Shown here: in pieces, positions 30,627 through 31,380 of the stretch
Position numbering within the stretch: the first letter of the stretch is position 1
How the letters are laid out: each line of letters opens with the position of its first letter
NCBI GenBank assembly: GCA_021205455.1
Contig: JAJPXL010000045.1
Span: 1-64,000 of the forward strand
Direction: 5' to 3'
Source: Clostridiales bacterium
GTDB taxonomy: Bacteria > Bacillota > Clostridia > Oscillospirales > Oscillospiraceae
DNA length: 64,000 bases
Program-made: the position numbers and the translations under genes
Notes under the pieces: generated by a model
Databases searched by the model: none
What the model was told of the DNA's origin: nothing
What the model saw: the letters and a program-made list of their open reading frames with translations, nothing else

Positions 30627-30923
30627 CTACAGAATCATGACGGCGGTGACCACCGCTGCCAGAATCATGGCGGCGGAGGCTGCTAGGTCCAGGCTGTCCC
30701 GCAGCCGGGCGATGGTGTGCCACCTGCCCGCGGGAGCGGCGTGCTCCTGAGAGGCGGGGGCTTCCGGCTCCTCCGGCTCCGCCAGCAGAGCCTGCTGGGC
30801 GGCCAGCTTTTCCTTATATTCCTCAAAATCAATGACGTTATCTTCGTGGCGGATGAAACTCCGGGTGGTAAAATAAATGGTTTCCGTGGCAGATCCTCCA
30901 ATCTGGTTCCAACGCAAGAACAT
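30627..30923 (-). CDS. Small single-TM protein, predicted LexA-regulated
   Basis: ATG at 30923 (inside proximal SOS box), AGGAA upstream, acidic/coiled region then C-terminal TM (LDLAASAAMILAAVVTAVMIL); 98 aa. Confidence 0.65.
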   Translation of the reverse strand: MFLRWNQIGGSATETIYFTTRSFIRHEDNVIDFEEYKEKLAAQQALLAEPEEPEAPASQEHAAPAGRWHTIARLRDSLDLAASAAMILAAVVTAVMIL

Positions 30924-30973
30924 TTGTTCTATTTCCTGGTTCCTATAATAGCACATATGTTCGATTTGCGCAA
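30918..30973 (-). promoter_or_regulatory. Promoter with two LexA/DinR-type SOS boxes
   Basis: Minus strand: TTGCGC - 17 bp - TATTAT (30973-30945); box 1 GAACATTTGTTC (30918-30929), exact match to GAAC-N4-GTTC; box 2 CGAACATATGTGC (30951-30963) in the spacer. Confidence 0.65.
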
Positions 30974-31009: not shown

Positions 31010-31132
31010 TCAGGCGGCATCCTCCTCCAGTTCCGCCAGCGCCTCGCCGAGATTGTCGGCGGAGAACAGGAACGCTCCAAACTGATCGTACACTTCCACA
31101 TGGCCTCTGACATAACAGATTCTTACTTGCAT
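31010..31132 (-). CDS. 40-aa hypothetical protein, below the ORF-track length cutoff
   Basis: MQVRICYVRGHVEVYDQFGAFLFSADNLGEALAELEEDAA; preceded by AAAGGAGG SD and TATACT -10 on the minus strand. Confidence 0.6.
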   Translation of the reverse strand: MQVRICYVRGHVEVYDQFGAFLFSADNLGEALAELEEDAA

Positions 31133-31380
31133 GGCGGTTAGCCTCCTTTTGTTTGATGAAACCAGTATAGCATGGAAGGTGTCCAATAATCTGGACAGCG
31201 TTGCCGTTGGGAGAAGTTTTTCAGGGGGGTTCCTGAGATGAGGCCCTTTGGAGGGAATAGGGGCGGCCCTCGTTCCAAATCGTTTACGCTTTGTTTCCCC
31301 TTTGTTCCCGCATTGTTCTTGCTTTTTCCGGTGCGGAGGGGGTATAATGGCCCAAACACCCTTCCAGGAGAGTTATTAGA

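Follow-up and report, generated by a model that had tools for sequence, protein, structure and literature searches.

A candidate family of LexA-controlled, tail-anchored membrane proteins in Oscillospiraceae, with a possible second input of the WYL type

A short gene on the minus strand of the window, that is, the whole 64-kb stretch of DNA that was analyzed, encodes a small protein with a single hydrophobic segment at its C terminus and is preceded by two LexA-type boxes that are conserved together with the protein across genera. On the evidence of its own sequence and that of its relatives, we regard control of this transmembrane (TM) protein gene by LexA as very probable. As for the role of the protein, our favored proposal, which we hold with as much doubt as confidence, is that it is a DNA-damage-induced, tail-anchored membrane checkpoint effector, most likely an inhibitor of cell division, and that it probably receives a second, WYL-type input.

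Promoter, operator and start codon

The initial annotation had described a good promoter with a LexA-type box in its spacer, followed by an exact GAAC-N4-GTTC site over the predicted ATG. Every one of these elements is found on the minus strand, between 30973 and 30918, as follows.

30968..30973, minus strand: -35 element TTGCGC, from the sequence and comparison with relatives
30951..30962, minus strand: LexA box 1, GAACATATGTGC, which fills the -35/-10 spacer and is kept in relatives
30945..30950, minus strand: -10 element TATTAT, from the sequence and comparison with relatives
30918..30929, minus strand: LexA box 2, GAACAAATGTTC, kept as DNA in relatives

The 17-nt spacer between TTGCGC and TATTAT holds CGAACATATGTGC, which contains box 1, and box 2 includes the ATG of a 98-aa open reading frame (ORF). 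The -35 element of this promoter, initially described as good, is weak, with three of six positions matching the consensus. This weakness explains why the promoter is not among the matches listed by a consensus promoter scan. At the -35 position, distant relatives have TTGACA. Box 2 is the sole exact GAACN4GTTC in the window, where allowing up to one mismatch gives 12 matches against 19 expected, no excess over chance. Exact sites are likewise not enriched genome-wide (16, against 22 for a reversed control), and the case for LexA sites therefore rests on conservation.

The comparison with relatives also relocates the start of the gene, the features of which are listed here.

30627..30887, minus strand: coding sequence of the predicted tail-anchored protein, 86 codons plus stop, with a start conserved in relatives, from aligned homologues
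30627..30923, minus strand: 98-aa ORF from the ATG inside box 2, open, as initially annotated
30894..30899, minus strand: Shine-Dalgarno sequence GGAGGA, 6 nt ahead of the conserved start codon
30630..30686, minus strand: C-terminal TM helix, residues 68-86 of 86, from hydropathy, within an AlphaFold helix spanning residues 55-85

The start shared by relatives is an ATG behind GGAGGA (METVYFTTR), 12 codons downstream of the ATG in box 2, and the start initially predicted was misplaced by that distance. Among the six closest relatives, four have GAACAAACGTTC as box 2, the box being retained while its ATG is gone. Selection therefore acts on box 2 as DNA, which makes it an operator in the leader rather than a start site. 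At the conserved start, this assembly reads ACG (30885-30887) and every aligned relative ATG, so the copy in the window may yield little protein or be in decay. The ACG could come from an error in the assembly or mark an allele that is decaying, and the ATG in box 2 may provide a substitute start in this genome.

Architecture of the protein

By hydropathy, the protein has a single strongly hydrophobic segment of 19 residues, at the very C terminus, which is preceded by about 65 hydrophilic, conserved residues. The AlphaFold model is of low confidence (pLDDT 65, pTM 0.28) and was used for the C-terminal helix only. Homologues keep a constant layout while their sequences drift to about 25-45% identity. 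They start with M-x-T-[IV]-Y, and [NK]V[IV]D[FL]xxYR comes next. A linker rich in acidic residues and proline then leads to a basic patch and to the TM helix, with which the chain ends. Since positive charges precede the helix, the N terminus is predicted to be inside, which would place about 65 residues in the cytoplasm and almost nothing outside the membrane. This predicted cytoplasmic segment is more conserved than the helix. Searches of Pfam, NCBIfam, PHROGs and PDB sequences gave no credible match to the protein, and there was no Pfam match to LysM.

Operator and protein are conserved together

We gathered 35 homologues by protein similarity alone and scanned the 260 bp upstream of each for LexA-like sites with at most one mismatch. 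At least one site is present upstream of 34 of the 35, and at least two upstream of 32. In controls, these figures are 12.6% and 0.9% for dinucleotide shuffles, and 6.4% and 1.2% for genomic windows. Twin sites before 32/35 homologues, as opposed to about 1% of controls, rule out the reading that the sites are there by chance. Measured from start to start, the boxes lie 24-25 bp apart in most lineages; the distance is 33 bp in the group to which the window belongs and 19 bp in the sister group.

The reverse search, done with the twin-site pattern only in 201 genomes of the family, returned 29 promoter-like hits, 28 of which precede a small protein of the same kind (counting one cut by a contig end and two of 41-42 aa with uncertain kinship), and one a radical-SAM gene. 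The two short proteins, at L102 and L103 in genus g67, lie behind a promoter combining twin LexA sites with a GTCC motif (see below) and are nearly all TM helix, with a basic N terminus. They may represent the family in minimal form.

Homologues were found, at the thresholds used, in 14 of 32 genomes of the genus and in 22 of 251 genomes of the family, spread over 11 genera. Relatives thus span 11 or more genera, all within one family (records titled Oscillospiraceae/Clostridiales). The matches of an order-wide profile search, in which 12 candidates per genome were scored and distant members may be missed, are confined to the same family. The ORF is under purifying selection, with dN/dS values in the closest group of 0.08-0.59 over all pairs (mostly 0.15-0.4), and of 0.17-0.59 for the window's own gene against its relatives. 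Gene neighborhoods compared, with crude ORF calls, in the window and 11 regions of other genomes revealed no widely conserved neighbor. The initial annotation had made its reading depend on boxes and ORF being kept in relatives, and this is what we find across genera.

LexA and other SOS-type sites in the genome

The initial annotation had also pointed to lexA, wherever it lay in the genome, as bearing on its reading. The genome of the window (2.67 Mb in 175 contigs, 98.9% complete) encodes one LexA above the curated cut-off, which is full-length (C48:4291-4893) and shows, as judged by eye, an AG cleavage site and the catalytic Ser and Lys. Upstream, lexA carries a box of its own of the same type, CGAACAAATGTTTG, and an exact site of this type also lies upstream of ruvC. 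Another exact site, accompanied by a twin, lies upstream of a radical-SAM gene, at the promoter of which twin LexA sites are present in this genome as in other members of the genus (L106 at G000:C149:38063-38093, L162, L166). Its product, a radical-SAM protein with helix-hairpin-helix (HhH) motifs, is a putative DNA repair protein. Upstream of recA (L182), no LexA-like site with at most one mismatch was found within about 800 bp.

Sites of this type were also seen in what may be mobile elements. The promoter of a gene resembling that of a prophage terminase small subunit (L014, G000:C146:17009-17020) has the LexA-type site GAACAGATGTTC, which suggests a prophage under SOS control. Promoters of XRE-family regulators (L160 and L163) hold clusters of GAACN4GTTC-like sites, and these regulators may be mobile-element repressors with LexA-like operators.

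A second promoter-like motif and its link to WYL regulators

A second promoter-like motif just upstream had been missed in the initial account of the locus. It stands ahead of a gene encoding a 40-aa protein, and the end of that gene is separated from the LexA promoter by about 35 bp.

31164..31196, minus strand: motif GTCC-N8-GGAC-N11-TATACT, from a genome motif search, ahead of the 40-aa gene
31010..31132, minus strand: 40-aa gene (MQVRICYVRGHVEVYDQFGAFLFSADNLGEALAELEEDAA), on the same strand as the TM protein gene and just upstream of it

When half-sites with at most one mismatch are counted, 13 of the 35 homologues gathered independently by protein similarity have GTCC-N8-GGAC-N10/11-TANANT in their leaders, compared with 0.2-0.3% of controls. 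Besides 31164-31196 in the window, genome searches found the motif across the family at loci L114-L142 and L184-L208. It lies upstream of genes for WYL-type regulators in three genomes, G094, G066 (two sites) and G228. Pfam confirmed WYL for the G094 and G228 proteins, and WCX as well for the former. Other genes preceded by the motif are addB and those for a UvrD-type helicase, BrxA (BREX), DUF2397 and a Cas3-like HD-helicase, the Cas3_HD Pfam match of which is below cut-off. The proteins of about 40 aa, which are conserved in many genera and encoded behind this motif, share WVRGHVEVYDxxGxFxFSADxxxEA and matched no Pfam family; apart from the window, they are encoded at L115, L122, L128, L132, L133, L135, L188, L189, L200, L202 and L208. 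At L208, the motif is followed by a 40-aa gene, a gene for a 59-aa protein with a C-terminal TM segment and a gene for a WYL-type regulator, an order that associates motif, WYL factor and TM protein.

Judging by these gene associations, a WYL-WCX factor probably acts at the GTCC-N8-GGAC motif, which suggests a candidate WYL-controlled, LexA-independent damage or defense regulon in the family, marked by this motif.

Discussion

The kind of system described here is known. Small division inhibitors that have a single TM segment and are induced in the SOS response occur widely and are unrelated to one another (PMC13396833, PMC6851548). As in YneA (Bacillus/Listeria), SosA (Staphylococcus), DivS (Corynebacterium) and ChiZ/Rv2719c (Mycobacterium), the protein in the window is small, single-TM, LexA-regulated by our reading and poorly conserved between lineages. 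The known Gram-positive inhibitors have an extracellular C terminus, most with LysM, which is present in YneA and ChiZ (PMC6851548) but absent here. Moreover, in these four proteins the TM segment is followed by an extracellular C-terminal part, whereas here it occupies residues 68-86 of 86 and the bulk of the protein is predicted to be cytoplasmic. We therefore rejected membership in the YneA, SosA, DivS and ChiZ families on account of the reversed layout and the lack of LysM, and the near absence of predicted residues outside the membrane counts against the same mode of action. Unlike sosA, which adjoins lexA, the gene in the window does not.

A dual LexA and WYL input, as proposed here, has a precedent in mycobacterial rv2719c, which is under LexA. 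The same gene has input from a WYL factor, PafBC (PMC8151990). Caulobacter has SidA, a LexA-regulated small TM protein that may be likened by description to ours, and DidA, which has 71 aa and a single TM segment and is controlled by the WYL factor DriD. The two inputs act there on two separate genes (PMC4211646), whereas in our case a single gene seems to receive both. The associated regulator resembles PafBC, DriD and BrxR in being WYL-WCX, with a PafBC-type C-terminal architecture, and in the presence of the motif before repair-type and BREX genes. It differs in that the motif, to which binding is deduced from gene association only, is a symmetrical GTCC-N8-GGAC, 10-11 nt ahead of the -10 element.

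In our proposed mechanism, two LexA dimers, one bound to box 1 and the other to box 2, immediately downstream of the transcription start, would keep the promoter shut in undamaged cells, and RecA-driven self-cleavage of LexA would open it. The C-terminal helix would then insert in the cytoplasmic membrane, leaving in the cytoplasm the segment of about 65 residues with (M)ETxYFTTR...NVIDFxxYKxK, and helix and tail would together engage the divisome, imposing a transient division block that gives time for repair. A WYL-WCX factor at GTCC-N8-GGAC would probably act on the gene through read-through in the window, and in many of the relatives it would do so directly. We infer division arrest because SOS-induced small TM proteins repeatedly block late division steps, often via FtsW (PMC13396833, PMC6851548, PMC4211646). 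Findings that count against the checkpoint proposal are the patchy occurrence of the family, the ACG start of the copy in the window, the near absence of residues predicted outside the membrane and, in the genome of the window, a WYL gene that has no exact copy of the second motif.

The strongest conservation lies in the predicted cytoplasmic N-terminal segment and not in the helix, and the second motif is also found ahead of BREX, cas3-like, DUF2397 and addB genes. Both points would suit an adaptor or regulator that is anchored in the membrane, is controlled by LexA, serves repair or phage defense with no direct effect on division, and might for instance recruit or restrain a cytoplasmic partner via its conserved NVIDFxxYKxK segment. 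The protein is however very short and fast-evolving, down to forms of 41-42 aa that are mostly helix, which a membrane inhibitor fits better, and we consider the adaptor unlikely, if still a serious contender. Being a small, SOS-controlled (as predicted) membrane protein with a strongly hydrophobic helix, it could also be a membrane-depolarizing peptide that induces dormancy after damage, like TisB. TisB lacks a long conserved hydrophilic domain, in contrast to the stretch ahead of the helix here, and this possibility, against which the good Shine-Dalgarno sequence in relatives also argues, is the most improbable of those weighed. No antisense regulator was noticed, short of a systematic search, which likewise speaks against it.

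It could finally be that the family is indeed under LexA while the window's own copy is decaying or untranslated, as its ACG start might indicate. The frame, both boxes and the Shine-Dalgarno sequence are nevertheless intact, dN/dS against relatives is as given above, an in-frame upstream ATG is available, and a single-base error is possible in a metagenome assembly, which together leave decay improbable. Returning to the checkpoint effector, its fullest version, in which two damage circuits of Oscillospiraceae, LexA/RecA and a PafBC/DriD-like WYL factor at GTCC-N8-GGAC promoters that repair and phage-defense genes also have, converge on one tail-anchored protein, which arrests division from the cytoplasmic face of the membrane, is offered tentatively, as a possibility we would rate below its negation.

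Gram-positive SOS checkpoint proteins have been described in Bacillus, Listeria, Staphylococcus, Corynebacterium and Mycobacterium, and our literature search on Oscillospiraceae with LexA and the SOS response found nothing. What appears to be new is the family, with its layout, and the second promoter motif that is shared with other genes. Co-conservation of operator and protein defines a candidate checkpoint family with a layout opposite to that of the known ones, and the shared GTCC-N8-GGAC motif suggests that these gut bacteria have a second, LexA-independent and WYL-controlled response to damage or in defense.
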